DNA of 64,000 nt from Salinibacter sp. 10B. Its GTDB lineage: Bacteria > Bacteroidota > Rhodothermia > Rhodothermales > Salinibacteraceae. Shown one piece after another: positions 3,527-22,772 of this stretch. Position numbers and translations under genes: made by a program. Position 1 is the first letter of the stretch; each line of letters begins with the position of its first letter. The DNA lies in contig NZ_MQWC01000004.1 in NCBI RefSeq assembly GCF_002954405.1, positions 3,040,668-3,104,667 on the forward strand, in the 5' to 3' direction. The notes below the pieces were generated by a model. That model was not told where the DNA came from. It was given only the letters and a program-made list of their open reading frames with translations, and did no database searches.

Positions 3527-6500
3527 ATGCTGCCCTCATCGGTTCGTTCTCTCGTCGGTGTTCTCGTTTTGCTCTTGGCGATTCCGCTTCCCCTTTCCGC
3601 CCAGCCGGCATCGGTCGACACGGCGCTTTTTCGTGATCTCGACTACCGGATGGTCGGCCCTACCCGCGGCGGGCGTGTGACGGCGGTAGAGGGGCATCCT
3701 GCTCATCCCAAGACCTTCTATATGGGCGCCGCCGGCGGCGGGGGCGTGTGGAAAACCACCGACTACGGGGAGACCTGGATCAATCTCACGGACGGGGAAA
3801 ACTGGAAAAGCACGGCGATCGGGGCACTGGAGGTGCCTGCTTCGGATACGAGTATCGTTTACGCTGGCACCGGTTCGGAAGCCATCCGCGCCAATGTGAC
3901 CACCGGACGCGGCGTCTACAAGTCGACGGACGCCGGCGATTCCTGGCAATTTTTGGGACTGGAAAATGCCGGACAGATTGGCGCCATCAACGCCCATCCG
4001 GAGAACCCGGACCGCGTGTTCGTCGCTGCGCTTGGGCATCCCTTCGGGAAAAACAAGCAGCGGGGCGTCTTTCGCTCCACGAACGGCGGCGAAACGTGGG
4101 AGAAGGTCCTCTATGCCTCCGACTCGACGGGAGCCGTGGACCTCGCATTCCATCCAAACAACCCCGACGTGATCTACGCTGCGATGTGGCGGGCCGAGCG
4201 GAAGCCGTGGACCATTATCAGCGGCAACGACGGGGGGGACGGCCTCTACAAGTCGACCGACGGGGGAGATACGTGGACTCAGTTGGAAAACGGGCTCCCC
4301 ACCGGACTTGTCGGCAAGATTGACATCGCCGTCACGCCCGCCGCGCCGGATCGCGTCTACGCACTTGTGGAAGCACCGGGCAAGAAGCAGGGCCTCTACC
4401 GCTCGGACAACGCCGGCGAGAGCTGGCGACAGGTGAGCGACAAAAAGGAGATCATGAGCCGCCCGTTTTATTTCACCCACATCTTTGCCCACCCCGAGGA
4501 CCCGGATCAGATCTTCGTGGGCAATGTCAACTATTGGGTGTCGTCGGACGGAGGGCAGACCTTCGACACGAAAGAGGTGACGCACGTGGACGTACACGAC
4601 CTCTGGATCAACCCCGAGCAGCCTGAGATTCGCATTCAAGGAAACGATGGGGGAGCAACGGTGTCGATGAATGGAGGGCAGACGTGGTCTACGCAGCACA
4701 ACCAGCCGACCGCCGAGCTTTACCAGGTGAACGTGGACGAGCGGTTTCCCTACTGGCTTTATGCCGGACAGCAGGACAACTCGACGATCGCCGTGCCGAG
4801 CCGTCCGCCCGCCGAGAGTGCGCCCGCGGGGCCGTCGGCCTGGTGGAAGGCCATTGGCGGCTGCGAAACCGGCCCCGTCGTGCCTCAGCCCAACACGCCC
4901 ATCGTGTTCGGCAACTGCAAAGGGCGCTTTGCCCGATACAGCCAGGAAACCGGCCAGGCGCAGCAGTACTGGGTGGGGGCGCAGTACATGTACGGCCAGA
5001 ACCCCGCCGAGCTGGAGTGGCGCTTTCAGCGCGTGGTGCCCATCGAGATCTCGCCGCATGACTCCAGCGTCGTTTACCACGCTTCGCAGTACGTGCATCG
5101 AACCACGAACGGGGGGGAGGACTGGTCCCGCATCAGTCCGGACCTTACGGCGAACAAGCCACAATACCAGATGCGCTCTGGCGGCCCCATCACCAACGAC
5201 ATCACGGGCGAAGAGCACTTCAGTACCCTCTACGCCGTGCAGGTGTCGCCTCACGACGCCGACGTGATTTGGGCGGGCGCGAACGACGGTCCGGTCCACG
5301 TAACGCGGGATGGTGGGGAGACGTGGACGAATGTGACACCGCCCGACGTGCCCCCAAACGGGCGCGTCGACGCCATTTCGCCGTCGCCCCACGCGCCCGG
5401 CACCGCAACGGTTGCCATCCAGCGACGCCTCCTCAAGGACTTTGCGCCCTACATCTACCGCACCACCGACTACGGCGAGACGTGGACCCGCATCACGGAC
5501 GGCATTCCGTCGGATTACCCCGTGCGAACCGTTCGGGAGGACCCGAACCGCGAAGGTCTGCTTTACGCCGGCACCGACTTCGGACTGTTCGTGTCGTTCA
5601 ACGGGGGGCAACAGTGGCAGCCCCTCCAGCGCGACCTCCCGGTGACCCCCGTCACCGACATTCGGGTCCATCGAAAGGATCTCGCTCTCTCCACCATGGG
5701 GCGTAGCTTCTGGGTCCTCGACAACTTGACGCCGCTCTACCAGATCGACGAGCAGCTCGCCGAGGCCGACCGTCACCTTTTTGCTCCCCGCGACGCGTAC
5801 CGATTGCGGTACTGGGGGGGGCAGCGCGGCCCGAGCGGGCCGGAGTACCCGGCCGCTGGGGCGATGATCGACTTTTATCTGGAGGAGGCGCCGGACCAGC
5901 CGATCACCCTCGACATTCTCGACGGCACTGATGTGGTGCGCCGGTTTGTGGGGGTAACGGAGCAGATGGAAACGGCAGACGAGAGGAGCCCCGCTCGGCC
6001 GATGAAGGCCCCGGGTCCTGTCGAGCCGAGCACGATTGACACGTTTACGGTCCACGCGGGACAGAACCGGTTCACCTGGGACCTGGAGTACCCCGAGGCA
6101 ACGCCGAAGACACAGGGTGAGGGCACGTACTTCGGCGTCTACAGCGGCCCGATGGCCCTTCCCGGCTCGTACCGCGTGCGTTTATCGGCAGGCGATTGGG
6201 ACGCGACGCAACCCCTGACGGTGAAGATGGACCCGCGTGTACAGAACGCGGGGGTGACGAAAGAAGACCTGGAGGCGCAATTTGCGCTGAACCGCGAGAT
6301 CCTCGATGCCATCGGCACGGCGCGCGCCACGGCCTACGCCATCGACTCGGTCCGCACGCAACTCCGCAACGCCGTAGAGAATGGGCAACGCGATCAGGGC
6401 ACGGTGCAATCGACGCTTGATCGTCTCGGCGCTCTCCACGCAAAGCTGGCAACCTCGACGGAGGGCAGCTACCCGCCCCCCAAGCTCATTGACCAGCTGG

Positions 6501-6649
6501 AGTACCTCTACTACATGACGAGTGCGGCCGACCAGAATCCTGGATCCGACGCGCCTGCCCGCTTTCAGACGCTGGACAAGCGCCTCAGTGACATTCGTGC
6601 CGAATGGAAGCAGCTCCGACGCCAACTCGATCTTCCGACGACCGACTGA
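3527..6649 (+). CDS. secreted BNR-repeat / VPS10 (sortilin)-type beta-propeller protein
   Basis: 1040 residues with a signal peptide (VLVLLLAIPLPLSAQ). Residues about 35-720 hold many Asp-box (BNR) motifs of the form S/T-x-D-x-G-x-x-W: KTTDYGETW, KSTDAGDSW, RSTNGGETW, KSTDGGDTW, RSDNAGESW, SMNGGQTW, RTTNGGEDW, TRDGGETW and RTTDYGETW. This is the pattern of large glycosyl-hydrolase-like or sortilin-type propellers common in Rhodothermota and Bacteroidota. The last ~300 residues form a beta-domain (PGSYRVRLSAGDW) and a helical tail. Such proteins are exported. Many are annotated as glycosidases, but no catalytic set is visible here, so an enzymatic role is not claimed. It is a single gene, with about 195 bases before it and 166 after. 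Confidence 0.85.
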   Translation: MLPSSVRSLVGVLVLLLAIPLPLSAQPASVDTALFRDLDYRMVGPTRGGRVTAVEGHPAHPKTFYMGAAGGGGVWKTTDYGETWINLTDGENWKSTAIGALEVPASDTSIVYAGTGSEAIRANVTTGRGVYKSTDAGDSWQFLGLENAGQIGAINAHPENPDRVFVAALGHPFGKNKQRGVFRSTNGGETWEKVLYASDSTGAVDLAFHPNNPDVIYAAMWRAERKPWTIISGNDGGDGLYKSTDGGDTWTQLENGLPTGLVGKIDIAVTPAAPDRVYALVEAPGKKQGLYRSDNAGESWRQVSDKKEIMSRPFYFTHIFAHPEDPDQIFVGNVNYWVSSDGGQTFDTKEVTHVDVHDLWINPEQPEIRIQGNDGGATVSMNGGQTWSTQHNQPTAELYQVNVDERFPYWLYAGQQDNSTIAVPSRPPAESAPAGPSAWWKAIGGCETGPVVPQPNTPIVFGNCKGRFARYSQETGQAQQYWVGAQYMYGQNPAELEWRFQRVVPIEISPHDSSVVYHASQYVHRTTNGGEDWSRISPDLTANKPQYQMRSGGPITNDITGEEHFSTLYAVQVSPHDADVIWAGANDGPVHVTRDGGETWTNVTPPDVPPNGRVDAISPSPHAPGTATVAIQRRLLKDFAPYIYRTTDYGETWTRITDGIPSDYPVRTVREDPNREGLLYAGTDFGLFVSFNGGQQWQPLQRDLPVTPVTDIRVHRKDLALSTMGRSFWVLDNLTPLYQIDEQLAEADRHLFAPRDAYRLRYWGGQRGPSGPEYPAAGAMIDFYLEEAPDQPITLDILDGTDVVRRFVGVTEQMETADERSPARPMKAPGPVEPSTIDTFTVHAGQNRFTWDLEYPEATPKTQGEGTYFGVYSGPMALPGSYRVRLSAGDWDATQPLTVKMDPRVQNAGVTKEDLEAQFALNREILDAIGTARATAYAIDSVRTQLRNAVENGQRDQGTVQSTLDRLGALHAKLATSTEGSYPPPKLIDQLEYLYYMTSAADQNPGSDAPARFQTLDKRLSDIRAEWKQLRRQLDLPTTD

Positions 6650-6815
6650 CATCGCTGCGTTTCACTTGGAAGATGCGGATCCCTAAAGCACATTGAGGCA
6701 CTGTCGGGGGGGAGGAAGCGTATAGGGGGCGGAGGCATGGAAGCGTGGAGGATTGAACGGCGGCTTCCGTCTGTCTCCCTCACGTTCATGCGTCCACACG
6801 TCCACACAGTCGCCT

Positions 6816-7460
6816 ATGTTTACGGGAATCATCGAAGAGGTAGGTACTCTCACGAACGTCGAGGATCTCGGGGGCGGCAAACGGCTCACCATTGAGGCGG
6901 AGATGGCACCCACGCTCCGGGTCGACCAGAGCGTCTCGATCAACGGCGCGTGCCAGACGGTCGTGGCGGTGGATGCCGAGAATCGCACCTTCGCCGTCGA
7001 TAGCATTGAGGAAACCCTGCGCAAAACGACGTTCGGCCGTTTCACGGCGGGCGCGCCGGTCAACCTGGAGCGTGCACTGCAGGCCGGCGACCGGTTGGAC
7101 GGCCATTTTGTGCAGGGACATGTGGACGCCACCGGCACGATCGTCAAGGTCGAGCGGGAGGAGACAGACTGGCTGTACACCATCCAGTTCGATCCCAAAT
7201 ACGCCGCCTACCTCATCCCGGTGGGCTCCATTTCCGTAGACGGCATCAGCCTAACGGTGGCGCGGCTTGAGGAGGAGACCTTTACCGTCGCGATCATTCC
7301 GCATACCTACAAGGAGACGAACGTGGCCGACGGGTGGACGGAGGGAGCGGCGGTGAACCTGGAGTTCGATCTCATCGGGAAGTATGTGACGCGCAGTTTG
7401 ACCGCGAGCGGCGAGACACCCGATCCAGAGGCACTGGCGCAGGCCTGGGGAGAGGAGTAG
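6816..7460 (+). CDS. ribE: riboflavin synthase, alpha chain
   Basis: 214 residues. The start MFTGIIEEVGTL at 6816 is the invariant N-terminus of the family, so the longer upstream reading is rejected. Two homologous lumazine-binding barrels are seen: residues 1-95 (SINGACQTVV, VDSIEETLRKT) and about 97-195 (GHFVQGHVDATGTI, SISVDGISLTV, IPHTYKETNVADGW). The enzyme dismutates two 6,7-dimethyl-8-ribityllumazine molecules to riboflavin and the pyrimidinedione, in the cytoplasm. Length is normal. No other rib genes are adjacent and no FMN riboswitch consensus is visible in the 166 bases upstream. Confidence 0.95.
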   Translation: MFTGIIEEVGTLTNVEDLGGGKRLTIEAEMAPTLRVDQSVSINGACQTVVAVDAENRTFAVDSIEETLRKTTFGRFTAGAPVNLERALQAGDRLDGHFVQGHVDATGTIVKVEREETDWLYTIQFDPKYAAYLIPVGSISVDGISLTVARLEEETFTVAIIPHTYKETNVADGWTEGAAVNLEFDLIGKYVTRSLTASGETPDPEALAQAWGEE

Positions 7461-7604: not shown

Positions 7605-8165
7605 TTACGTGTGTGGATAGTCCATTTGTCTGGCAATCTGACGCCGCACAGTCGGTCCCGTTAGCCGTTCCACGACGTGGAGTCCGAGATCAATGCCCGC
7701 CGAGACGCCCCGGGCCGTAATCACGTCGCCTACGTCCACCACGCGATCGTCGACCACCTGCGCGCAGTACGGCGCCAAGTCGTCGAATGCATTCGGATGC
7801 GTGGTTGCCCGTCGATCGTCAAGGAAGCCCGCCGCCCCCAGAAGTAGGGAACCAGTGCAGACGGAGGCCTTCAGGCCAACAGGCTCGGCGGTCCTCATCC
7901 ACTTCAGGAAGGCGTCGTCCTCTTGCAGAAGGGCAGTGCCATGCCCGCCCGGCACCACGAGCAGATCGTACGCGTCTAGGGCGGACCCCACGCAATCGGG
8001 GGTGAAGTGCAGTCCCCGTGCATCGGAGATCGGTTCACGGAATGCGCAGAGGTCCCACGCGAAGTCGTCTACGAAGCCCATCGTCTTCAGACGAGTGATG
8101 GGGTCGTAGGCCCCGATGAGGTCGAGGGCGGTAAGGTCGTCGAAGAGGAGGAAGGCAACGGTCAT
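7605..8165 (-). CDS. DJ-1/PfpI family protein, isonitrile-hydratase-like
   Basis: 186 residues from ATG at 8165 (MTVAFLLFDDLTALDLIGAYDP). The longer frame upstream lacks family similarity. The protein has the class-I glutamine amidotransferase-like fold signature: LLVVPGGHG around residue 70, then the nucleophile elbow SVCTGSLLLGAAGFLDDRRATTH with a Cys at about 100. The aspartate-rich N-terminus LFDDLTALDLIGAYDP is typical of the isonitrile hydratase/ThiJ-like branch. It is probably a cytoplasmic hydrolase or lyase; the substrate is unknown. It has no operon partners and is convergent with riboflavin synthase. Confidence 0.85.
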   Translation of the reverse strand: MTVAFLLFDDLTALDLIGAYDPITRLKTMGFVDDFAWDLCAFREPISDARGLHFTPDCVGSALDAYDLLVVPGGHGTALLQEDDAFLKWMRTAEPVGLKASVCTGSLLLGAAGFLDDRRATTHPNAFDDLAPYCAQVVDDRVVDVGDVITARGVSAGIDLGLHVVERLTGPTVRRQIARQMDYPHT

Positions 8166-8576
8166 GAGAAGGGTTTTTCTGATGGACGTCTCATACCGAA
8201 TCTTGCTACAGGCTTCAGGTAGGGGAGCTACGACGATGTAATACGCAAATCCCTCTCGGATCGTCGGCGCCGTCAAGGAGGGCACCAGAAGCGCCGTTGG
8301 ACTCCAACGGCGCTACGGAAGCCTACTTCTACCGGAATAGAGCCCCCGGAGTTGGGATCACTTCCCCTTCCAGAACAGAAAGAAGCCCGTTCGTGCCTTT
8401 GCCCGAATCGGCCAGTGCGGGGGCGCTTAGAAACGGGTTTGCTGATTTTCCTTCGCACGAGAGAGCCCGTCCCGGAAGAATCGAGAGATCCGAAGACGCT
8501 CGGACGGGGGGTTGCGTTCGGATGCTGGGGACCTCGGTACAAGCCCTTTTCTTGAGCGGGATCCCCCAGCAACGAT
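8166..8576. other. intergenic region with a perfect 11-bp inverted repeat
   Basis: This stretch separates the PfpI gene start from the stop of the gene at 8577-9008. No frame on either strand looks coding. It contains a perfect inverted repeat AGCGCCGTTGG (8290-8300) / CCAACGGCGCT (8304-8314) with a 3-base loop. No T-run follows on either strand, so it is not a standard terminator. It could be an operator or an RNA hairpin. Confidence 0.4.
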
Positions 8577-9008
8577 TCAAGACGTTTCCACCAGCCAGCC
8601 GATGATGCGTCGGCGGTCTTCGCGGGGAGCATCTTTGTAGAAGTGCACTTCGACCGTGTCGAGGGGAGCGTAAAGGCCCACCTTGCCGGCGACGCCCGGC
8701 AGTCGGCTCGTGCGCGATCCGGGAATCGACGCCGAAAAAGACGCGCCGTACCGCTTCTCGCAGCGAGCGGCGAATCCGCTCAGAATCGGCCCGGCGGTCT
8801 CGTCCTCGAACGTCGCCTGTACGTGCAGAGGATACGCCCGACAGTCGTTGCGAAGCACGACCTCCCGGTCGGCTCCGTCGTACACGAAAATGTCGTGCGT
8901 GTCGCCGTTGCGCAGATGCGCATCGAGCTCACTCGGTGACGCGAAAACGACAGGGGCGTCCGTCTTCGTCGAAGGAGAAGCACTGCTCTTCTTTTGAGCT
9001 AAAGCCAT
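8577..9008 (-). CDS. hypothetical protein, third gene of operon
   Basis: 143 residues. The ATG at 9008 is preceded by AAGGAAAGCG, a good ribosome-binding site by the standards of this window. This supports the start even though it makes the gene overlap the end of the upstream gene (stop at 8929) by 80 bases in another frame. The protein is mostly beta-strand (HDIFVYDGADREVVLRND, YPLHVQATFEDET, DTVEVHFYKDAPREDRRRIIGWLVE) with no signal peptide or membrane segment. No family was recognised. Its operon partners are the two genes upstream. Confidence 0.65.
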   Translation of the reverse strand: MALAQKKSSASPSTKTDAPVVFASPSELDAHLRNGDTHDIFVYDGADREVVLRNDCRAYPLHVQATFEDETAGPILSGFAARCEKRYGASFSASIPGSRTSRLPGVAGKVGLYAPLDTVEVHFYKDAPREDRRRIIGWLVETS

Positions 9009-10206
9009 CGCTTTCCTTAAAGACGCTGTTTACGTAGTCGCGATCGATGGGACCGTTGAAGTTGAGAATGTCCCCGTGCCGAAGAGCGTTCATGATGGCC
9101 GCCCCGCCCCCCATATGGAGCATGCACACCGGTTCGTCGGCCTCTCCGAAGTACTCGCGGTAGTTGTAGGCCTCGTAGCTGTTGTGCACCGAGAACGAAA
9201 GCGTGTCGTCCGACAGCTCGTCGAGTTGCCAGTAGCCCCACCCGAAGGCATTGACGACCCCAAAGAGGGCCGTCATGGAGTCGTGTGCGCCGGGGCTGGG
9301 ACCGAAGTGCGACTTGCGAAGCAATCCAAACTCGGAGGAGAGCAGGATATTTCCGAGGGTGTAAAATCCGCACACGTGGCCCGCTTCCTTCAGCAACCGG
9401 ACGCCGAGGGCGCGGGACATGTTGTTTTCCTGAATGCGGTCCAGGAAGATCTGCGAGCAGATGTTGTAGTAGAGCGACGGAATGAACGTCAGGTACACGT
9501 TAAACGCCGGGATCAGACCTTTCTCCGGGTCCCCCACGAGGTCCATGTTCTGAACCGCCGACGTGACGGGCGGGGCAGGAAGGTTCTCGGGCTTAGGGTT
9601 CGGCGTGAGGGCATCACGGTGCTGCTGGAGGCGCTTGGCTTGCTCCATGTAGTTCTCGACGTTGTCCTGTCGATTGCTATGCCGGGTGACCGTCCACGTG
9701 TTTTTGTCGTCGCCCATGGCGATGCAAGAGGTCTGCTCGACCTCCACGTCGCAGCCGTAAGCCGCCGTTAATGCTCCCTGCAGGGCTCCCGTCAGGAAGA
9801 AGTCTTGCGGTTCGTCCTGGACGCCGAACTTGCTCTTGTAGCCCTCAGAGTAGTGAGACGCCGTTGCCGTGATGGTATCACTCTCTAGAGCATCCGTCAC
9901 CTGCGGATTGCCATATCCCCGTACCCGAAAAAGGGCCTGCGCGTAGGCAAGCCGTCGATTGAGGGACCACTCAGCGTCGAAGGCGCGCACGAACATAACA
10001 AAAAACAGGGCGGCCGACACGTTGACCAGGACGGCGTCCATCCCGGTGTCGGAGCGGGAGCGGAGGGTCTTCTGCAGGAAGCAGTTGTAGTGGTGGCAGT
10101 GGGCCACGTGGGTACTCCCACCCGGTCCCACGAGATGACCACGGTCTACAACAGGCTGCAGGGATTGCACCGCCTTAGCCCGAAGGTCAGGGGATACTAC
10201 GTCCAT
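8929..10206 (-). CDS. conserved hypothetical protein, possible V4R-like fold
   Basis: 425 residues. Near the N-terminus is a His/Cys-rich motif, VAHCHHYNCFLQKTL (about residues 34-48). This is followed by two halves that look distantly related: one around ALFRVRGYGN, the other around LFGVVNAFGWGYWQLDELS...FSVHNSYEAYN...PVCMLHMGGGAAIMNALRHG. The second half resembles the V4R (4-vinyl-reductase-like) small-molecule-binding domain pattern, with a Pro-Val-Cys and a Gly-rich turn. This is a suggestion from pattern, not a firm assignment. There is no signal peptide. The gene lies between a winged-helix-like protein (52 bases upstream) and a small protein that overlaps its 3' end, so the three are probably co-transcribed. 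Confidence 0.65.
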   Translation of the reverse strand: MDVVSPDLRAKAVQSLQPVVDRGHLVGPGGSTHVAHCHHYNCFLQKTLRSRSDTGMDAVLVNVSAALFFVMFVRAFDAEWSLNRRLAYAQALFRVRGYGNPQVTDALESDTITATASHYSEGYKSKFGVQDEPQDFFLTGALQGALTAAYGCDVEVEQTSCIAMGDDKNTWTVTRHSNRQDNVENYMEQAKRLQQHRDALTPNPKPENLPAPPVTSAVQNMDLVGDPEKGLIPAFNVYLTFIPSLYYNICSQIFLDRIQENNMSRALGVRLLKEAGHVCGFYTLGNILLSSEFGLLRKSHFGPSPGAHDSMTALFGVVNAFGWGYWQLDELSDDTLSFSVHNSYEAYNYREYFGEADEPVCMLHMGGGAAIMNALRHGDILNFNGPIDRDYVNSVFKESDGFSSKEEQCFSFDEDGRPCRFRVTE

Positions 10207-10258
10207 TTGACTTCGTTGCTAAATAAAGAGCGAACGAGGACGGTAGAGACAGAAACCG

Positions 10259-10858
10259 CTACCGATAGCACTGGTCCGGAATGTGCTCGTTGACGTTGTT
10301 CTCGATGGCATTCTCGAGCGCCTCGACCACGTCCGGGTTGCTGCACTGCTCCAGATCTTCGAGCTCGTCCATGTTGCCCACTCCGATGGATTCGAGTGCC
10401 TCAGAGGCCTCCATAAGGATGAAGGCCTGGGTATTTTTGTAGGATTTGACGTTGTCGGTTGTCTCTTCGAGCCAGTCCCACAGGGTCGGAAGGTGAATGA
10501 CGTCCGTGTCATCGTCGGTCGTCTCTTCTGCCGCAGACGCCGTCCCGTTCCTGCTGCTAACCCCGTCCCTCGACGCGTCTGCAAGAGACGACGTCTCTTC
10601 CCCCTCCGTGTTTTGGTCTTCGCTGCCCTCCTGCTGTTTGTAGGCGGCATACGCGATCGTGGGCTCCTCAATGAGGTCTCGTTGTTGCAGCTGACGGACG
10701 ACGGCAAAGATCTCCGGCTCACTCAGCTCGAGCGTATCGGCAATCTGGCCGATGCTCGTGTCCCCGTCGAGCCGGTCGTAAACGGCCCAGCAAGAGGGGG
10801 GAAGCATAAGGTCGGGATCCGGTTCGCGCCGACGCACGAAAACAGTTCCTGAAAACAT
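10259..10858 (-). CDS. winged-helix-like hypothetical protein, first gene of operon
   Basis: 199 residues from ATG at 10858 (MFSGTVFVRRREPDPDL). Residues about 20-65 read as a winged helix (CWAVYDRLDGDTSIGQIADTLELSEPEIFAVVRQLQQRDLIEE is its extent, shown in 10804-10660). A Ser/Thr/Glu-rich linker and a very acidic helical C-terminal region (MEASEALESIGVGN, LENAIENNVNEH) follow. Proteins with such a degenerate winged helix are often response-type adaptors rather than DNA binders. It lies 52 bases upstream of the V4R-like gene and is probably the first gene of a three-gene operon. The role is unknown. Confidence 0.7.
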   Translation of the reverse strand: MFSGTVFVRRREPDPDLMLPPSCWAVYDRLDGDTSIGQIADTLELSEPEIFAVVRQLQQRDLIEEPTIAYAAYKQQEGSEDQNTEGEETSSLADASRDGVSSRNGTASAAEETTDDDTDVIHLPTLWDWLEETTDNVKSYKNTQAFILMEASEALESIGVGNMDELEDLEQCSNPDVVEALENAIENNVNEHIPDQCYR

Positions 10859-11091
10859 GGATGGCGGTGGCAACGGATGTGAGGAAACACGAGGGGCGAC
10901 TTACGGCGTCCGCCTCCGACAGCCGGCATGGCTGTTGAGAGACGGCCCCGAATGTGTTCTAGGTGATAAACAACAATCATTCCGTCCCTTCTTTCTCATT
11001 ACATCCATCAATGGTTCTTCGTCCGATTCGGGAAATCGGCCCGCCTCGTCCTCGATGTCCGGGAGGCGACGGATCGCGCACCACGACTACG

Positions 11092-11125
11092 AAAAAAGGC
11101 GGCTCGGGGGAGCCCGAGCCGCCTT
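11092..11125 (-). terminator. rho-independent terminator of metE
   Basis: Perfect 13-bp stem (11096-11108 with 11113-11125, arms AAGGCGGCTCGGG / CCCGAGCCGCCTT) and a 4-base loop. On the minus strand it is followed by a run of T (11097-11092). It lies 34 bases beyond the metE stop. Confidence 0.9.
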
Positions 11126-11158
11126 GATCACGATAACCGAAATGTGTGCGTACGGGGG

Positions 11159-13471
11159 TTATGCTACCGCAGCAGGCTCGCGTACATTTTCGGCAGCCTG
11201 CACCATGTTTTCGAGTGAGGGCTTGACCTCAACCCAGCGGCGTGTCTTGAGGCCGCAGTCCGGATTGACCCACATCTGCTCGGTGTCGAGCACCTCAAGG
11301 GCCTTGTGGATGAGGTCTTCCATCTCCTCGACCGACGGCACACGCGGCGAGTGGATGTCGTAGACGCCCGGCCCAATCTCGTTCGGGTAGTCGAACTCGT
11401 CGAACGAGTCGAGCAGCTCCATCTTCGAGCGGGAGGCCTCCACGGAGATCACGTCGGCGTCCATGTCGGCGATCGCCTCGATGATGTCGTTGAACTCCGA
11501 ATAGCACATGTGAGTGTGGATCTGCGTCTCGTCCTGGACGCCGCAGGAGGCGAGCCGGAAGCATTCCACAGCCCACTCCAGGTAGTCGTCCCACTGACTC
11601 TCGCGGAGGGGCAGCCCCTCGCGGAAGGCGGGCTCGTCGATCTGGATGGCCTGCACGCCGGCGTCTTCGAGGTCGACCACCTCGTCGCGAATGGCGAGCG
11701 CGATCTGGCGGCACGTCTCGGCGCGCGGCTGATCGTCGCGTACGAACGACCACTGCAGCATCGTGACCGGGCCGGTCAGCATGCCCTTCACCGGCTTGTC
11801 GGTCTGGTCGTTGGCGTAGGAGAGCCACCGCACGGTCATCGGCTCGGGACGGCTCACGTCGCCGGCGATGATGGGCGGCCGCACACAGCGGCTGCCGTAA
11901 CTTTGCACCCAGCCGTTTTCGGTAAAGAGGAAGCCGTTGAGCTGGCGACCGAAGTATTCGACCATGTCCCCCCGCTCACTCTCGCCGTGCACCAGCACGT
12001 CGAGGCCAATCTCCTCCTGCGCCGCAATCGTGTCGGCAATCTGCTCCTCGATGAACTCCTCGTACTCCGCCTTCGAGATCTCTTCCTTCTTGTACTTCGC
12101 ACGCATCTTCCGCACATCGTTCGTCTGCGGGAAGGAGCCGATCGTCGTGGTCGGGAGCGTCGGCAGGTCGAGGGCGTCCCGCTGGATGGGGCGGCGCTGG
12201 GCGTGCGGAGAGTTGCGCTCCGTCATCGAACCGTCAATGCCATCCACACGGCCCTGCACGGACGTGTCGTTAATCCAGTCGGACTCGGCGCGCGCCGTCT
12301 GGGCGTTGCGGCTCTTCTCGAAGAGGGCCTCGGTGCCGTCCACGTCGCCGTTGGCGCGCTCCGTCAGCGCCACGATCTCCTCAATCTTCTGCTTGGCAAA
12401 CGCAAGCCAGAGCTTCATGTCGTCGTCGAGGGCCGGCTCGGTGTCGAGGTCGACCGGCACGTGCAACAGCGAGCAGGACGGCCCCACGAGCACACGGTCG
12501 GAGCCAAGCGCGTCGACGGCCGTCTCCACGGTGTCGAGGAGCGCGTCGAGGTCGGCCCGCCACACGTTGCGTCCGTCGATGAGGCCGAGGGAGAGCGACA
12601 GGTCCTCGGGCACGCCATAATCGAGGGCATCCTCCAGCTGGCCCGCGCCCCGAACGAGGTCGAGGTGCAGGACGTCGACCGGCAGGTCCAGAGCCGTAGG
12701 GAGGTTGTCCTCCAGGCCGCCGAAGTACGTGGCGACGTGCAGGTCGAGGTCGGCCGCGTCGGCGAGTGCCTCGTAGGCCTTCGTGAAGGCCGCGCGCTCC
12801 TCGTCGCTGAGATCGAACACGAGATTCGGCTCGTCGAGCTGTACCGCGTCGGCCCCGGCGGCGGCGAGCTCCTGCAGTACCTCCGCGTAGACGGGCAGCA
12901 GGTCGTCGAGCAGGTCGAGGGCGTCGAGGTTGTCCTCCTGCGTCTTGCCGAGTAGCAAGAACGAGACCGGGCCAATGATGACCGGCCGCGTGTCAATGCC
13001 ATGCTCCTTCGCCTCCTTGTACTCGTCAATGACCTTCGTCGAGGAGAGGGAGAAGTTCGTGTCGCGCGAAAACTCCGGGACGATGTAGTGGTAATTCGTG
13101 TCGAACCACTTTGTCATCTCCATCGCCTGCACGCCGGAGTCCTCGCCCTCCAGGTCCTTCTCCTGCAGCCCGCGGGCCATCGCAAAGTAGGTATCGAGGT
13201 CTACGCGTTCGCCATCCCACGGGAAGCGTTCGGGCACAGCACCGACCATCGCGCAGGTGTCAAGCACCTGGTCGTAGTAGGAGAAGTCGTTGGACGGCAC
13301 CACGTCGAGGCCGAGATCCTGCTGCTCCGTCCAGTGCGATTCACGGAGTGCCTGGGCCGACTCGATGAGCTCTTCCTTCGAGAGGTCGCCTTTCCAGTAT
13401 CCCTCCACGGCACGCTTCAGTTCACGGTGCGCACCGATACGGGGAAAACCGAGATTGCTTGCCTTCGCCAT
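11159..13471 (-). CDS. metE: cobalamin-independent methionine synthase
   Basis: 770 residues, normal family length. It transfers the methyl group of 5-methyltetrahydropteroyl-triglutamate to homocysteine, making methionine in the cytoplasm. N-terminal MetE domain: SNLGFPRIGAHRELKRAVEGYW. C-terminal catalytic barrel from about residue 430: LPTTTIGSFPQT, HGESERGDMVEYF, QIDEPAFREGLP, and the zinc site IHTHMCYSEFND with the second Cys in WVNPDCGLKTRR. The gene has its own terminator at 11092-11125. No B12 or SAM riboswitch consensus was found in the 600 bases upstream. The upstream hairpin at 13575-13598 is a candidate regulatory structure. Confidence 0.97.
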   Translation of the reverse strand: MAKASNLGFPRIGAHRELKRAVEGYWKGDLSKEELIESAQALRESHWTEQQDLGLDVVPSNDFSYYDQVLDTCAMVGAVPERFPWDGERVDLDTYFAMARGLQEKDLEGEDSGVQAMEMTKWFDTNYHYIVPEFSRDTNFSLSSTKVIDEYKEAKEHGIDTRPVIIGPVSFLLLGKTQEDNLDALDLLDDLLPVYAEVLQELAAAGADAVQLDEPNLVFDLSDEERAAFTKAYEALADAADLDLHVATYFGGLEDNLPTALDLPVDVLHLDLVRGAGQLEDALDYGVPEDLSLSLGLIDGRNVWRADLDALLDTVETAVDALGSDRVLVGPSCSLLHVPVDLDTEPALDDDMKLWLAFAKQKIEEIVALTERANGDVDGTEALFEKSRNAQTARAESDWINDTSVQGRVDGIDGSMTERNSPHAQRRPIQRDALDLPTLPTTTIGSFPQTNDVRKMRAKYKKEEISKAEYEEFIEEQIADTIAAQEEIGLDVLVHGESERGDMVEYFGRQLNGFLFTENGWVQSYGSRCVRPPIIAGDVSRPEPMTVRWLSYANDQTDKPVKGMLTGPVTMLQWSFVRDDQPRAETCRQIALAIRDEVVDLEDAGVQAIQIDEPAFREGLPLRESQWDDYLEWAVECFRLASCGVQDETQIHTHMCYSEFNDIIEAIADMDADVISVEASRSKMELLDSFDEFDYPNEIGPGVYDIHSPRVPSVEEMEDLIHKALEVLDTEQMWVNPDCGLKTRRWVEVKPSLENMVQAAENVREPAAVA

Positions 13472-13574
13472 AGGCGTACAAATGGTTCATGCGTGAGGAG
13501 AATGGAATCTGTAATGTGAGGGCGTTTGTGGAAAAATGCTACGCACGTCGGTTTATTTCCTCAAACATCCATAT

Positions 13575-13598
13575 TACCCCCAGGTTATGTTGGGGGTA
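13575..13598. promoter_or_regulatory. perfect inverted repeat upstream of metE
   Basis: TACCCCCA / TGGGGGTA arms of 8 bp with an 8-base spacer, about 105 bases upstream of the metE start. It could be a dimeric repressor operator or an RNA hairpin in the metE leader. There is no T-run, so it is not a simple terminator. Confidence 0.35.
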
Positions 13599-13986
13599 GG
13601 TCAAAATTGGAGGAAAAGATTAGGGCGTGAGTATGGGGTCTGGCATGAGGTAGTGAGGCGCACTCGTGTGCACTCGTTTGAATGCAACGAGCCCCCGGAG
13701 ATCAATCGCCAACCCCGTGCGAAACCCTCATCGAATCGACTCTCGATTGCACGCCCGGATACCGGATCCGGCAACTTAATTCAGGACGGAAAAGAATCTG
13801 TAGCGCTGTCGGAGGAGGGGGGCGAGATTGTCCGCCGCACGATGGAGACGCTCTGTGTCGAGGCAAAAAATCCAGTGTCGCGACGCGTCGGACCTGCGGC
13901 TACTCTCGCAACGGCACACTCCAACGGCGTTTCGGACTGAGCTTCCATATTGGAAAAAAGCTGCAGGATTTGGTATGAGCGGTCCG

Positions 13987-14016
13987 TTGACACTCTCTTC
14001 TCTCCCCGCTTAAGTT
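13987..14016 (+). promoter_or_regulatory. possible sigma-70-like promoter of the effector island
   Basis: TTGACA at 13987 and TAAGTT at 14011 with an 18-base spacer, followed by an A/T-rich leader to the ATG at 14080. This is a consensus match by eye only. Rhodothermota may use a different primary-sigma consensus. Confidence 0.3.
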
Positions 14017-14079
14017 AATTAAAGCATACATACCAATTCTATTTTGTTTTATTTTTTTCTCCTCGCTTCCCTTTTCTCC

Positions 14080-15497
14080 ATGCCTGAGTTTACCGGCGCG
14101 ACCGACGAGACACACGTCTTCACCCTTCCCTCCGAAATCGACGCCGTCCGCTTCGACCGACGGCAGGCCGCCCCCGGTGGGGAGATCGGCCTCGAAATCC
14201 GCACGCTCTTCTGCGCTGAGGGCTCTCGTCTCCAGATCAAGCTCGTCGACGCGCAGGGGACCGTCCACAACACCCTCGACGGCCGGCTCGCGGGCGAGGA
14301 CATGAATCTCCGGCTTCGGGTGCCGCAAAAGGCGAAGGGCGGCCTCCTGGCGAAGGTCAAGATGCCGAACCACGGCCTCTCGGCCGAGTCGGAGGCCCTG
14401 AAGGTGACCGAGCCGGTGCGGGTCCGCGGTGGTCGCAGGAAGAAGTCAAACGCGGAGACATTCTCACGCTCACAGCCGACGCGAAAGGCGCGCCCGACGG
14501 CCGCCGGGCGACCGTCCGCATTTTCGAATACAAGGAGCGCGGGGCGCACGTCCCGGTGACGCGGCTGCGTCCTCGGGTAGAAAACGGAGCCGTGGAGGTG
14601 ATGTACCGGTTCCAGTATCCGGGCGACACCGCGGACATTGTGCCGGAGTGGAAGGCGCCGGAGGGCTACGTGCAACCGCAGTTTTTCTACACGGTGGACG
14701 TGAGCGGCATCATCGCCGATTCGCAGGACGCGAAGAGCACGGGCGTGATGCGATTCGTGGACGATCTGGATCTCCGGTTTGTAAACGAGGGAGGAGCGCC
14801 GCTGGCCAATCAGACTGTCGAGCTCACGCTCGCCGACGGCTCGACCGAAGAACGGCAGACGTCTGGGGAGGGGCGCGTCCAGCTGCGAGAGGTGCCGCCG
14901 GGCCCGGTTCACGTTGGGCTGGCCGGCTACGAACCCGCGTCTGACGAATCGGAGTCCGAGGCCGATCAATCGCCGCCGTCCGAGGATGCAACTCGGCTCG
15001 TGATGGACACGGCGGATGCGACCGCCGGCGTGGCGACCGGAGGCGAGGAGACGGTCTGCGTCGTGCCGCCACGAATCGACCTTCACCTGGAGCACGGGCT
15101 CGTCGGGGCGAAGCTCGCGGGCACCGACTACACGCTGAAGATCAAAACCGAGGACGGATCCACGTCCACCCTCGAGGGAACGGTGGACAGTGAGGGGCGG
15201 CTGCAGCAGGCGGTGCCGGTCGGAGCGGTGGCCGCCGCGCTCACGCTGAAGACGGAAGGCGGGACCGTTACGGTGCCGCTGGATCTCACGTCTCTTTCGG
15301 CGGGGGGGGACGAGGCCGGGTTGCAGCAGCGCCTCGCGCAGGCCGGCGTCTACGGTGGCAAGGTTGATAGCAAAAACGGGGCGGTCACCCGGGCGTCCGT
15401 TCAGACTTTGCAGGCACAGCTGGGCCAATCGCCGACCGGCACGATTCCCGAAATGGAACGCCCCATGCTCGACGGTCTGCGGTTTCGGGATGCGTAG
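14080..15497 (+). pseudogene. Ig-like / peptidoglycan-binding effector-type protein, frameshifted
   Basis: Starts MPEFTGATDETHVFTLPSEI at 14080. Frame 1 encodes an Ig-like domain to about EALKVTEPVRV (14420), then turns into basic nonsense and stops at 14559. The natural continuation is in the -1 frame from about 14415: WSQEEVKRGDILTLTADAKG, VRIFEYKERGAHVPVTRLRP, YRFQYPGDTADIVPEWKAP, then a third beta-domain. The C-terminus has the pattern of T6SS/eCIS-linked peptidoglycan-binding proteins: DYTLKIKTEDGSTSTLEGTV, LQQRLAQAGVYGGKVDSKNG, LQAQLGQSPTGTIPEMERPM. One base appears lost, so this is a pseudogene, a sequencing error, or two coupled genes (GTG at 14556 overlaps the TGA at 14557). It lies 48 bases before the effector gene at 15546. 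Confidence 0.65.
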
Positions 15498-15545
15498 GTC
15501 CCTTTTCTTTTCTCAATTGTTTTGCACTTCCAATCTCAGTTTGTC

Positions 15546-17498
15546 ATGTCTACGCCCGATTCATCAGAACCGACGATCGAGTCCTGGATTGAGGAGAGTT
15601 TCTCCGATTCTGGGCAGGCCGCACTGGACCTGCTTCCGGAGGATGCGCCCTTTTACCGGCGGTACGGCAACTACACCCTGCGCCGGGGCGACTGGGACGG
15701 CTCCTGGCCCTCGGCGCCGGTGGAGGAGGGGCGGGAGATCGGGCTCGCCAACGGGGACCTCGTGCTCCCCGGCATTGTCGTGGACCCGGCCGAGGAGCAG
15801 CCCCCGACCATTTCCCTCGGGGGATACGTGACTCAACTGCAACTGGACCTGTGGAATCTGGGCTTTGGCCTCATCCGGGAGTTTGACGGGGTGTTCGGCC
15901 CTCGGACCGAGCAGGCCGTGCGGGAGTTTCAGATCTACGCCGGGATGGGCCGGGTGGCCGAGGAAGACCCGAAGGCCGCCGGGGAGTACGTCGAGCGGCT
16001 GTCGGGGACCGACAATCCGGAAGGATCCATGACGCGCTACACCGGAGAAGTGACGGGCGTCCTCAACCAGGAGACGCGCCGCTGCCTCACCCACTGGATC
16101 AATGAGGGCTACCGGTGCCCGGTGGTCATCACCGCGCGGACGGGGGACGAATACGCGTCGGTCTACGACGGCGATGCAATGGCCGAGGGGGCCGATCCCG
16201 AAAACCTGTGGGGCCACGACGACCTGCAGAGTAATAGCCCACGAGTGTTCGCCGTCGACTTTACCGACTACTACGATCTCCCCTCGGAGCCAGACTCGTC
16301 TGACCCATCTCTTGATGGGATTCGACACTTTGTCTTGGGCGAATACAACTCCTATGAGGGCGATGAAGGCCCAGTCTCCCAACAGTATCACACTTGGAAT
16401 GAGGGTGAAATTACTCCGCAGCGACTCATAGGAACGCCCGGGGAGCACCTAACTGAAGCCGACCAATCCACGTACGATGTCGTCCACGCGGTCTCTCACA
16501 TCGAGTGCATGGGCTATTTCGACTCGGTGAATGCCTATGACCGAGCCCTCGTGTCCGTTGGTCCGTGCCACTGGACGCTCGGTTTAGCTGACTCGTCTGG
16601 GGGGGTAGGAGGAGGAGAACTGTGTGGGTATCTCGCCTATCTGCAAGAGTGTAATCCAAACGCGTTCGAGAAGGCATTCGGCCGATTCGGCCTGGGCCTG
16701 AACCATCAATGGGGGAACTGGGAGGATCCGGGGGGATCCCCTGACGGGAGCACGCTTTACGACGACGCATCTCGGACCTACTCCAGCTGGGTGCAGTTGC
16801 CAGCGCAGGACCTAGATCCTGAGGGGAAGGGTTCCGATGAGGAGAGCAGTGAGGAGATGCAATCGATGCCGAAGGCCCCACCTGATGCCAAGTCCGAGGC
16901 GCTGTACTTCAAGTCCTGGCATTGGTTCTACCGGTTCGTGATGGCAGGACGCACGGTCGAGCCGTATCGTCAGAGAATGTGGGACATGGCTCGGGTTCGG
17001 ATTCGAGATCTTCGTTCCGCCTCCCTCCCATTGGAGGCACCAGAGAAAGCGGAATGGTCGCCAGAGGAGATCACTATCGGAGACATCTTTACCTCCGAGA
17101 AAGCCATGGTGATGGTTTACTGCTGGCACATCTACTCGCCTAGCGATGTTTTTCCGTTAGTAGGCCAATCGTGCCTTGAGGAGGTCTTCGATCATGCCAG
17201 TTCTGGGTACCACGACGTTCACGAACAATATGTGGACCAAGAGGACGAAGAACTGCAAATTCAAAGGCAACTGACCATAAACGGCGAAGAGGTCGATGGA
17301 GCACGCCTCGACTGGTCGAGACGGCCCGGCTCCTGGTCCGACCGGCATGAGCTGGCTTTGATCGGCGGGCTTCTACAGCGCTCCAGTGGAGAGATTCGTC
17401 GGCGGATCGGGCTGCTTTTTCTAGACGAGCACCAGACCCTCGACGAAGGACGAGGCTCGTTCGCGTTTGCGGATGCGGGACTACCCGAGAGCCCTTGA
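15546..17498 (+). CDS. modular peptidoglycan-binding / lysozyme-like effector (copy B)
   Basis: 650 residues, no signal peptide. N-terminal part: YRRYGNYTLRRGDWDGSWP, LANGDLVLPGIVVDP. A peptidoglycan-binding domain follows (VTQLQLDLWNLGFG, FDGVFGPRTEQAVREFQIYAG), then NQETRRCLTHWINEGY at about residues 174-189, encoded by the 48-bp repeat. The C-terminal part has a lysozyme-like motif, HIECMGYFDSVNAYDRALVSVGP, with Glu as probable catalytic acid, then a helical region with FGRFGLGL. The domain order resembles effectors of contractile injection systems. G+C falls sharply inside the gene: 46/60 at 15661-15720 against 32/60 at 16321-16380 (hand counts). The next gene, convergent 55 bases away, encodes a lipoprotein that may protect against it. 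Confidence 0.75.
   Translation: MSTPDSSEPTIESWIEESFSDSGQAALDLLPEDAPFYRRYGNYTLRRGDWDGSWPSAPVEEGREIGLANGDLVLPGIVVDPAEEQPPTISLGGYVTQLQLDLWNLGFGLIREFDGVFGPRTEQAVREFQIYAGMGRVAEEDPKAAGEYVERLSGTDNPEGSMTRYTGEVTGVLNQETRRCLTHWINEGYRCPVVITARTGDEYASVYDGDAMAEGADPENLWGHDDLQSNSPRVFAVDFTDYYDLPSEPDSSDPSLDGIRHFVLGEYNSYEGDEGPVSQQYHTWNEGEITPQRLIGTPGEHLTEADQSTYDVVHAVSHIECMGYFDSVNAYDRALVSVGPCHWTLGLADSSGGVGGGELCGYLAYLQECNPNAFEKAFGRFGLGLNHQWGNWEDPGGSPDGSTLYDDASRTYSSWVQLPAQDLDPEGKGSDEESSEEMQSMPKAPPDAKSEALYFKSWHWFYRFVMAGRTVEPYRQRMWDMARVRIRDLRSASLPLEAPEKAEWSPEEITIGDIFTSEKAMVMVYCWHIYSPSDVFPLVGQSCLEEVFDHASSGYHDVHEQYVDQEDEELQIQRQLTINGEEVDGARLDWSRRPGSWSDRHELALIGGLLQRSSGEIRRRIGLLFLDEHQTLDEGRGSFAFADAGLPESP
16066..16113 (+). 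repeat. 48-bp exact repeat, copy 1 (cassette junction)
   Basis: Identical over 48 bases to 18907-18954, in the same reading frame, encoding QETRRCLTHWINEGY. It marks the end of the conserved N-terminal region of effector copy B and the start of homology of copy C. Confidence 0.9.
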
Positions 17499-17553
17499 AC
17501 CGGGTGAGACTTGCTTTTTCTGGAACAGGGGAGAGGAATCTCGCAGAGCAAAG

Positions 17554-18798
17554 CTACGGAAGACCTTCCTCATACGCGGCGTGCTTGAAGCGAATCGTGC
17601 GCGAACGGACCTCTGTTTCACCGGGTTCGTGGAACCGAACGTGGAGATTCCGCCAGCGAGATCCGTTTGGGGCAGTCGTGTATTCGTCGGTCGGCGTGAG
17701 CTCAACTGCGTATCTCTGCCGGTGTATCCGGGTATACCACGTTCCGTTGCACCTCGCGTAGACGGTGAATTCGTGCTGAGCAGGTCCGGTCTCCCCGACT
17801 GAATTCTCACGGAGAACACGGTCAACCTTCTGGTCGTCGTTTAGGTCACTTCGCCAGACGGTCTGGGTTTTCATCGTGCTATCCAGAATTGTCGGTGCTC
17901 GTCGTCCGGCGGGACAGTTGGGGGGAAAAGCGCCCGCCTTCTGCATCTCGGACCTGGTGTAGGGAGAGTCGTGATGCACGAACCACGCGGAACCCGGTAG
18001 TAAAGCGTAGCGCTCGATATCTTCATAGTAGCGATAGATCCGCGTTGGATACGTCACATCTTCAGTTCCCAAGGGGGGGGAGTGAGGAATCTTCATGAAC
18101 TGCCGCCAGTGTTGCCCACTTTTGGTTTCAGCAAAAGCCGAAGGCACGTAGCCGGTGCCACTTGTCCACTCGGTCGAATCGGGGTGAAAGGGTTCAAAAT
18201 CATATGCAGAAAGCATTCTCATGACAGGAACATATCTGCCTCCTCCGCAGGCCAAGTAGAGCGAAAAGTCGCATCCAGCGCGATCACAGTTGACGGCTGG
18301 ACCCACGTCGAGTCGTCCGTCCCGGTTCACATCTTCAAGTAACCACGTTTCGACCGTTGCTGACCATAGTTTCTTTCCTCTGTACGTTTCCTTAAGAGGC
18401 TCGACGGTAGCTTTCGTGTCATAGCTACTCGAATCGAGGGTGATAGTTACAACCCCATTTTCTGGGCCAACAGGACAGTCCACACCCGCAGAGTCCAGCT
18501 GGGAGGTCTGTAGCTCAGCCTTGATTGTATCCGGTCTTGGGACGGTTGTCGACGCACTCGAATCGTGCGCCGCAGAATCCTCCTCGGTCGAGGCAGAAAG
18601 CGCGGCCGGCGAACGGCCTCTGGAAGAAGTGCCCGAACCGGAAGCGAACCGGGTATCCTCGGTCACGATATCCGTGGATTCTACCGCTTCCGCTGGCGAA
18701 GGGTCGCCTGACTCGGGTGATCTGCAGCCCGAAACGAGGAGCAGGCCGAAGAGACAAGATACGGAGAAGAGAGCGAATCCGGGAAAGGAGTGGCGCAT
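17554..18798 (-). CDS. lipoprotein, candidate immunity protein to effector B
   Basis: 414 residues from ATG at 18798 (MRHSFPGFALFSVSCLF), with a lipoprotein signal ending in LLVSGC. A Ser/Thr/Glu-rich linker follows, then two related beta-domains. Each has a calcium-loop-like segment (DVNRDGRLDVGPAVNC; DLNDDQKVDRVLRE), a strand pair (FSLYLACGGGRYVPV; FTVYARCNGTWYTRI) and a Trp-Arg motif (GQHWRQFMKI; GSRWRNLHVRF), suggesting an internal duplication. The gene is AT-richer than its surroundings (26 G+C of 60 at 18181-18240, counted by hand). It sits between two copies of a lysozyme-like effector, on the opposite strand, and its product would be envelope-anchored. An immunity role is an inference from position and location; no family was recognised. 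Confidence 0.65.
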   Translation of the reverse strand: MRHSFPGFALFSVSCLFGLLLVSGCRSPESGDPSPAEAVESTDIVTEDTRFASGSGTSSRGRSPAALSASTEEDSAAHDSSASTTVPRPDTIKAELQTSQLDSAGVDCPVGPENGVVTITLDSSSYDTKATVEPLKETYRGKKLWSATVETWLLEDVNRDGRLDVGPAVNCDRAGCDFSLYLACGGGRYVPVMRMLSAYDFEPFHPDSTEWTSGTGYVPSAFAETKSGQHWRQFMKIPHSPPLGTEDVTYPTRIYRYYEDIERYALLPGSAWFVHHDSPYTRSEMQKAGAFPPNCPAGRRAPTILDSTMKTQTVWRSDLNDDQKVDRVLRENSVGETGPAQHEFTVYARCNGTWYTRIHRQRYAVELTPTDEYTTAPNGSRWRNLHVRFHEPGETEVRSRTIRFKHAAYEEGLP

Positions 18799-18806
18799 TG
18801 GCTCGC

Positions 18807-21032: not shown

Positions 21033-21080
21033 TGGACCGAAACTTCCAGCCGCTACCTCAAATGTGTCTAAGTCGAAATT

Positions 21081-22103
21081 ATGCTAACGCATTCGACTTC
21101 CAGGCGTCCTTTACTTTCGGGATTTCTTATATGTTCTCTGCTCGTTTTGATATCAACACTCTTCAGAAAAGAAGACGCGAACCAACACGGTGAAGTCGTC
21201 GCCAGTTTCCACGTTATTGCACATGTTGTCGGGACCGATACCACAAGACCAACTCCGATTGAAGAGCGACCTTGTGGAACCTACGACTGGTTTGATGCTC
21301 CGGAGGAAGGGTGGGAATCCTTAAGCTCCAGCCCCTTACCTGGAACCCACTATGCGTCGCTACACGAACTAACCTGCAAGTGGGCTGCTTACCAGAATGG
21401 TCTGAGTCTCGACTCTACGCACCTTCCGAAGTACGTGCGACCGGTGGGGGACAGTCTCCGCCTTTCCGAGGACGCCGTAACCTATGGGGTAAAGATGCGG
21501 CCCGCCGATCCGGATCCCCTGGATAAAAGCAACCTTTACCTCGTCGCCGAGGTGGTTGATTCGCTGTTCTTCAGTGACATTGGAAAAGCGCGGCCCTATC
21601 AAGACGAATCCCCATCCACCGTTTCCATTCGAGCGATGCGGCCGATTGACGTGCCCGGTGCTGACTCTCAGTATCTTTGGGTCGAAATCGAAGAACGACA
21701 TCTTGACGAGGAGGGCTCCCCGACAGGCGTCTACACTCGATGGCGTGGACACATTTTTGCCTACGACCGCCGTCGCGGCATGCGACATCTGCATCGCGCT
21801 CCCGTGCGCGTGGAGCGAACGCGGGGTGAGAAGCTCATCGGCGCCGAGCAGTGGGACGTGTCGGTCCCCGAACCCGGAATTATGCTCGTTGAGCCGCGCT
21901 CGAAGCGCGGGAAGGTGTGGGAAAACACCATTGACGAAGGCGGGGTGTCGCTCGGTCCGCCCCAGCACTGGATCGGGCGCCACGTGATCGACCCGACGGC
22001 CACCAGCAAGCGGGAGGTGGAAATGACGCCGGGCAGCAACTACACCAAGATCATCGACACCACGGAGGTGGAAAATTGGCGAGAGGTTTACGACAAACAG
22101 TAG
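21081..22103 (+). CDS. exported hypothetical protein, candidate immunity protein to effector C
   Basis: 340 residues. A hydrophobic N-terminus (PLLSGFLICSLLVLISTLF) serves as signal peptide or membrane anchor and places the rest in the periplasm. The mature part is beta-rich, with GTYDWFDAPEEGWESL, ELTCKWAAYQNGL, VTYGVKMRPADPDPLDKSN and WVEIEERHLDEEGSPTGVY. No family was recognised. It starts 48 bases after the stop of effector copy C, on the same strand, which is the usual effector-immunity order. The 5' end is strikingly AT-rich for this genome (22 G+C of 60 at 21121-21180, counted by hand), while the 3' third returns to the local average. That suggests recent acquisition or a chimera. Confidence 0.6.
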   Translation: MLTHSTSRRPLLSGFLICSLLVLISTLFRKEDANQHGEVVASFHVIAHVVGTDTTRPTPIEERPCGTYDWFDAPEEGWESLSSSPLPGTHYASLHELTCKWAAYQNGLSLDSTHLPKYVRPVGDSLRLSEDAVTYGVKMRPADPDPLDKSNLYLVAEVVDSLFFSDIGKARPYQDESPSTVSIRAMRPIDVPGADSQYLWVEIEERHLDEEGSPTGVYTRWRGHIFAYDRRRGMRHLHRAPVRVERTRGEKLIGAEQWDVSVPEPGIMLVEPRSKRGKVWENTIDEGGVSLGPPQHWIGRHVIDPTATSKREVEMTPGSNYTKIIDTTEVENWREVYDKQ

Positions 22104-22146
22104 GCAGGTTAGCACGACCGGTCGATTCAGCCGGAAATCCTGAAGG

Positions 22147-22728: not shown

Positions 22729-22772
22729 AACCGAACGCTCGAACGGACGGAGGGTCCATTCGTTGGCCTTTG

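Follow-up and report, generated by a model that had tools for sequence, protein, structure and literature searches.

We describe a set of three genes (A-B-C) packed on the minus strand of the window, the 64,000-nucleotide stretch of Salinibacter sp. 10B DNA analysed here, whose central product, B, consists of two V4R domains in tandem. The two V4Rs are fused in 17 of the 21 B loci studied and encoded by separate, adjacent genes in the other four (L047-L050), from which we conclude that they probably pair as a heterodimer; small proteins resembling A and C recur around them. We propose that A-B-C forms a module which senses a small molecule or the redox state inside the cell and in which the V4R pair signals in trans through A, a reading to which we give an even chance. 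As the gene set is rare and is met again in distant bacteria, close to signalling genes of various kinds, it probably represents a sensor not yet described; no description of the cluster was found in the literature searched, which was covered mostly at the level of titles and abstracts.

Organization and genomic setting of the operon

The open reading frames confirm the layout given in an earlier note on this DNA, namely three packed minus-strand genes (8577-10858) encoding, among others, an HCHHYN protein (Table 1). The C reading frame overlaps the 3' end of B by 80 bases. The reading frame of A extends over 10259-10873, and its start, the ATG at 10858, is shared with the homologue at locus L002. 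The operon is placed between metE (11159-13471, minus strand) and a DJ-1/PfpI gene (7605-8285, minus strand). As a hairpin with a T run follows metE, A-B-C probably has its own transcript; the scan that found this terminator-like site returned four such sites against 2.5 given by shuffles, and no sigma-70-type promoter.

Table 1. Coordinates of the A-B-C genes and their features in the window.
Feature	Position	Strand	Description
Gene A	10259..10858	minus	199 aa; wHTH-like N-terminus, variable linker, conserved helical tail
A winged-helix-like segment	10652..10810	minus	About residues 17-69; MarR_2 and five other HTH models, below cut-off
A conserved tail	10262..10495	minus	About residues 122-199
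Gene B	8929..10206	minus	425 aa; tandem V4R protein
First V4R of B	9658..10110	minus	Residues 33-183; Pfam V4R and MopR fold match
HCHHYN motif	10084..10101	minus	B residues 36-41, at the start of the first V4R
H118	9853..9855	minus	Invariant His of the first V4R; 21/21 rows
Second V4R of B	8932..9573	minus	Residues 212-425; hhalign to first half, C-half profile to MopR
Putative V4R zinc site, second domain	8950..9126	minus	C361, E406 (or E407), C409, C419; from MopR alignment and DmpR ligands
Gene C	8577..9008	minus	143 aa; start uncertain; Cys56 in NDCR motif
Terminator-like hairpin	11096..11125	minus	Between metE and A; stem of 13 bp plus T run

The order A-B-C, with overlapping genes, is kept in G016, a member of another genus of the same family (locus L002), at identities to the window of 59-60% for B, 51% for A and 41% for C; the arrangement is thus more than chance. 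The G016 operon adjoins what we take to be an isopentenyl-diphosphate-isomerase-like gene. Within the genus of the window, metE is present in 12 of 13 genomes, the window's own included. Two of the 11 other genus members (L056 and L057) have metE and DJ-1 adjacent without A-B-C and so provide a clean presence/absence site for the A-B-C stretch (8286-11158 in the window); the remaining nine have no DJ-1 match in the available flank, which in two of them stops at a contig end. On the other side of metE, about 9 kb of the window (13480-22637), with PG_binding_1 proteins inside, separates it from a class-V aminotransferase gene, and these two genes stand close together in 10 of the 11 other genus members' loci. 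A plasmid or viral origin of the operon gained no support: no plasmid match was obtained for B or two relatives, and among viral contigs a pattern search gave 21 matches, none of them encoding a relative.

Protein B is a pair of V4R domains

The Pfam V4R model (PF02830) scores 39.5 bits on residues 131-170 of B, above its cut-off of 31, and is the sole Pfam domain found over all 425 residues, with no fused AAA+ or DNA-binding domain. B is also the sole V4R match in its own genome at E <= 0.001, in a search that matched the family in 3 of 14 control genomes. In a fold search with an AF2 model of B, built from four sequences (mean pLDDT 63.8, pTM 0.63), the best matches to the first half are the phenol sensors MopR, PoxR and DmpR (Z 16.2-17.6), headed by MopR 5kbi_A (Z 17.6, rmsd 2.8, 148 aligned), with MJ1460 (Z 14.1), Bet3-family proteins (Z 10-12) and, distantly, H-NOX (Z 7.0-7.3) further down. 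A profile of 14 relatives likewise finds MopR (E 6.7e-4) and MJ1460 (E 9.8e-4).

By profile comparison the second half of B is a V4R domain as well. The N and C halves align with an hhalign probability of 98.7%, in a run without a shuffled control, and a profile of ten C-halves finds MopR at E 5.5e-5, mainly over an NSxEA motif and the first zinc Cys. Taken alone, six of the ten C-halves match Pfam V4R; the window's own C-half does not. Among the relatives, L037 and both split halves of L048 give no Pfam V4R match, and the L045 protein has two V4R stretches in a single chain. The possible V4R-like half proposed for B in the earlier note was therefore real but understated, since both halves are V4R.

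Residue conservation was counted in an alignment of 21 B proteins; as the N-terminus is missing from one of them, HCHHYN is represented by 20 rows. Within this motif H36 is kept in 20/20 proteins, C37 in 19/20, H38 in 17/20 and H39 in 18/20; elsewhere N248, T283, S290, E292 and E345 are, like H118, present in all 21, and C279 in 20 of 21. The zinc ligands of the DmpR V4R are Cys151, Glu172, Cys177 and Cys185 (PMC7264223; also PMC10715001). Their counterparts are D135, Q158, C161 and N169 in the first V4R of B, and C361, E406/E407, C409 and C419 in the second, where two extra residues lie between the last two Cys. On the residues at these positions, the first V4R has a degenerate zinc site and the second plausibly retains one; of the window's two V4Rs, only the second has a putative C/E/C/C site that seems complete. 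Judged from the alignments, the HCHHYN motif is distinct from this known V4R zinc site and better conserved. The phenol-anchoring Trp134 of MopR aligns with V340, which leaves a MopR-type phenol pocket unsupported in the second V4R; for the first V4R, the stretch of the His/Trp dyad falls outside the printed MopR alignment. The conserved HCHH, H118, C279, E292 and E345 could equally point to an enzyme or a cofactor carrier.

Proteins encoded beside the V4R pair

The winged-helix-like character ascribed earlier to A has fared less clearly: a wHTH-like segment is seen, but the scores of all HTH models stay below their cut-offs (MarR_2 at E 0.0092, 16.6 bits against 27, with five other models also falling short). 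The best E in a PDB search with this segment is 0.23, and the predicted wHTH of A may not bind DNA. Comparison of A with its L002 homologue shows a varying linker between two conserved ends; in the tail, YKNTQAFILMEAS differs by at most one residue in L002 and KNTQAFILMEAS is identical.

A helical segment resembling that of A is encoded upstream of B in 16 of the 21 loci. In the window and L002 it is joined to a wHTH and in L040-L046 to a Roadblock-like domain, whereas in the other seven it forms a protein by itself. The Roadblock-like domain, found at the A position of seven Myxococcota loci, is indicated by a profile match to MglB (E 0.0014). Pfam Roadblock itself misses most A proteins, its one match (L046, E 0.0039) being below cut-off. 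Between the Roadblock-fused and the small A proteins hhalign gives 28.9% against a shuffled maximum of 2.75. Position and a weak hhalign score hint that the tail of the window's A could be the counterpart of the small A proteins elsewhere: hhalign gives it a probability of 3.8 with the Roadblock-fused clade, where 20 shuffles reach at most 0.9, and 0.13-0.19 with the three other A groups. In five of the Roadblock-fused loci a second uncharacterised gene lies just upstream of the Roadblock-fused A gene (L041 8628-9344, L043 8724-9284, L044 5915-6505, L045 3463-4332 and L046 5591-6091); its product looks Roadblock-like by eye, with no Pfam match over cut-off.

For C, no Pfam or NCBIfam match was found at E <= 1, and the AF2 model (mean pLDDT 40) is too low in confidence to confirm the beta-rich fold suggested for it in the earlier note. 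The NDCR motif is common to the window and L002. Small C-like reading frames stand beside or near B in 18 of the 21 loci, being found in all except L039, L045 and L046, and a Cys occupies one alignment column in 17 of 17 aligned rows. The C proteins of the hemerythrin clade and of the Bacteroidetes align with an hhalign probability of 94.3, against at most 0.46 in 20 shuffles, and the C of L047 was recovered blind by profile (E 9.5e-18). A five-protein C profile places three C proteins of another clade in the 16 best of 3839 ORFs, at E 4.9-6.7, and the window's C has hhalign probabilities of 0.08-0.45 against the five other C groups, where shuffles reach 3.4. On such profile evidence, the homology among C proteins is real within clades and weaker between them. 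A search of the 3839 six-frame ORFs with profiles of the window plus L002 brought up no A or C protein from any other clade; what links the window's A tail and its C protein to the other clades is location and size alone, together with the Cys in the case of C.

Distribution of B

B is rare among the genomes of the window's phylum and of Myxococcota, the scope of our profile search. The window protein alone finds B in 2 of 60 near relatives; with profiles, the window's phylum yields it in 3 of 394 genomes, one class of that phylum in 3 of 197 and the window's own class in 2 of 244. Among Myxococcota 15 of 195 genomes are matched, of which 12 have a full or split B and three (G430, G434 and G435) a partial V4R match only. 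A wider contig scan used exact peptides of the window protein, and three of its eight candidate stretches were confirmed. The 21 loci studied (the window, L002, L003, L004, L005 and L035-L050) comprise seven in the window's phylum, including two Bacteroidetes MAGs (L003 and L004), and 14 in 12 Myxococcota genomes. Four weak Myxococcota profile matches were left out of the counts: L026 and L030 have single V4R-like ORFs without HCHHYN, and L024 and L025 no V4R ORF passing the filter.

A tree of B was built from 20 loci, without the broken L004; it groups the window with G016 in a single clade (100/100) that has a long branch (2.38), and it shows the window's phylum and Myxococcota intermixed. 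The B gene of L004 (5908-7170) has one in-frame stop, either a pseudogene or an assembly error. Two Myxococcota genomes hold two different B systems each, G619 (L042 and L047) and G444 (L044 and L045); in G619 one B is fused and adjoins a Roadblock-like gene, and the other is split and adjoins a desulfurase gene.

Genes near the V4R pair

Myxococcota carry many signalling genes, and the following occurrences, given as raw observations, come from a Pfam scan of part of the neighbours. Near B we found a HATPase and an RR-HDOD protein in L037, a PAS-HATPase and an RR-GGDEF protein in L039, an MCP in L048, CheW with a HAMP/sCache protein in L050, SpoIIE in L004, ParA and RR-DUF4388 in L044, ParA in L043 and DUF4388 in L042. 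Hemerythrin occurs near B in 3 of 21 loci (L005, L035 and L036), the last of which also has a HipA-like gene. In L047 a KAP-family P-loop NTPase gene (5589-7019) directly follows and overlaps the split V4R genes.

The earlier note had named two findings that would tell against its view of A-B-C as a sensor or regulatory unit, namely that no V4R-like fold is predicted for B and that the neighbourhood is not conserved; the fold is predicted, and A- and C-like partners recur around B. That view is accordingly supported in part, by the V4R fold, the recurrent neighbourhood and the nearby signalling genes; metal binding by HCHHYN, suggested in the earlier note, and DNA binding by A stay putative.

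Discussion

Published work offers several points of comparison for B. V4R domains are likely homologous to TRAPP Bet3 and are thought to bind hydrophobic ligands, with signalling either in cis or in trans (PMC2253512). The dimers formed by V4R/TRAPPC3 proteins contain internal cavities (PMC10933270), and V4R fusions with photoactive yellow protein have been described (PMC12826048). The closest relatives in fold of the first half of B are the V4Rs of MopR, PoxR and DmpR; MopR also resembles B in sequence, by the whole-protein and the C-half profiles, and the window's second V4R has candidate zinc ligands of the DmpR type. MopR, DmpR and XylR, however, fuse a V4R to an AAA+ sigma-54 activator and a DNA-binding domain, whereas B is a tandem V4R that has neither; unlike MopR, it has HCHHYN, and the phenol-anchoring Trp is absent in its second V4R. 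MsvR, a V4R-containing redox-sensitive transcription factor of methanogens (PMC3729527), resembles the window operon in coupling V4R to DNA binding, putative in the case of A; in the window, unlike MsvR, the V4Rs and the wHTH-like part belong to different proteins. The first V4R of B reaches only 15.4 bits (E 0.011), far below the MsvR NCBIfam cut-off of 220.

Our model for the activity of the module is as follows. B would be a covalent pseudo-heterodimer of two V4Rs. Its ligand would be a small molecule, probably a hydrophobic or aromatic one, or else a cofactor that HCHH/H118 keep in place. Binding would alter the V4R pair, and the change would be passed in trans to A via its conserved helical tail. 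In Salinibacter sp. 10B the winged helix of A would turn this signal into gene regulation; in Myxococcota an MglB-like Roadblock domain is often found fused at the A position, and elsewhere the pair lies beside histidine kinases, an MCP or CheW. C may be an accessory subunit with one conserved Cys. What the data establish are the genes themselves, the two V4Rs, their occurrence in fused or split form and the neighbours that recur; ligand binding by B, its contacts with A and C and the signalling output are what we infer here.

The same conserved residues would suit a different role, in which B is a carrier or assembly factor for a tetrapyrrole (heme or bilin) or other cofactor, HCHH/H118 holding the ligand; we consider this unlikely. 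It draws on the only published two-V4R clusters that we found, those with bilin-binding globins, an Fe-S protein and often heme oxygenase; in these pre-PcyA/bilin-globin clusters, including slr0144-slr0149, two different V4Rs (clades A and B) are, as in B, encoded together (PMC10151467). The distant H-NOX fold match and the hemerythrin neighbours would also fit. However, neither the globin nor the Fe-S gene is among the scanned window genes around A-B-C, and a phycobilisome-type globin occurs in 1 of 193 Myxococcota genomes, G580 (cluster L068), which is outside the 12 B carriers. The V4R frames of L068 are without HCHHYN and EAGxxC, and a search of 13 kb with the B half profiles matched them with an E no better than 0.0076. 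Membership of A-B-C in the bilin-globin clusters themselves was rejected on these results.

The recurrent Cys of C raises the prospect of sulfur handling, a cysteine desulfurase feeding persulfide to this Cys and from there to B, which we hold to be quite improbable. A gene of this type adjoins C or B in 3 of 21 loci, above the TIGR01977 cut-off in L048 and L050 and with 331 against 377 bits in L047, but no desulfurase was noticed beside B in the other loci, whose neighbours were partly scanned. The window's class-V aminotransferase (22638-23987) was rejected as the desulfurase of the operon: it scores 112.7 against 377 bits (TIGR01977), lies 11.8 kb from A, and is found near metE in the same 10 of 11 genus members' loci, all of which lack B. 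It is likewise quite improbable, in our estimate, that the V4R pair and a Roadblock-type partner work as a scaffold of the TRAPP kind, serving cell polarity or a small GTPase, in place of a ligand sensor. The TRAPP subunits Bet3/TRAPPC3 and TRAPPC6, with their longin/Roadblock partners, do offer a V4R-fold pair like B (PMC2253512; PMC10933270), and the seven Myxococcota loci with a Roadblock-like domain at the A position, ParA being nearby in two, extend the likeness. Against this, the Bet3-family fold match is weaker, 14 of 21 loci, the window included, are without a Roadblock fusion, no GTPase was found among the Pfam-scanned part of the neighbours, and there is no sign of a membrane role.

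A bolder extension of the sensing module would span bacteria, outside archaea, of the Bacteroidota type and Myxococcota: a modular V4R-V4R heterodimer with a Cys-bearing subunit of its own and output adaptors that can be exchanged (winged helix, Roadblock/MglB-like or stand-alone). In its Roadblock form this system would be a bacterial counterpart of the TRAPP V4R and Roadblock/longin core, put to use in signalling or polarity. As a whole we judge this extension decidedly unlikely.

V4R domains are widespread, and for most of them we know of neither ligand nor partner. The B family brings V4R and Roadblock proteins together in bacteria, and a fused or split V4R pair with small dedicated partners and interchangeable outputs would be a compact, testable system for signalling in trans.
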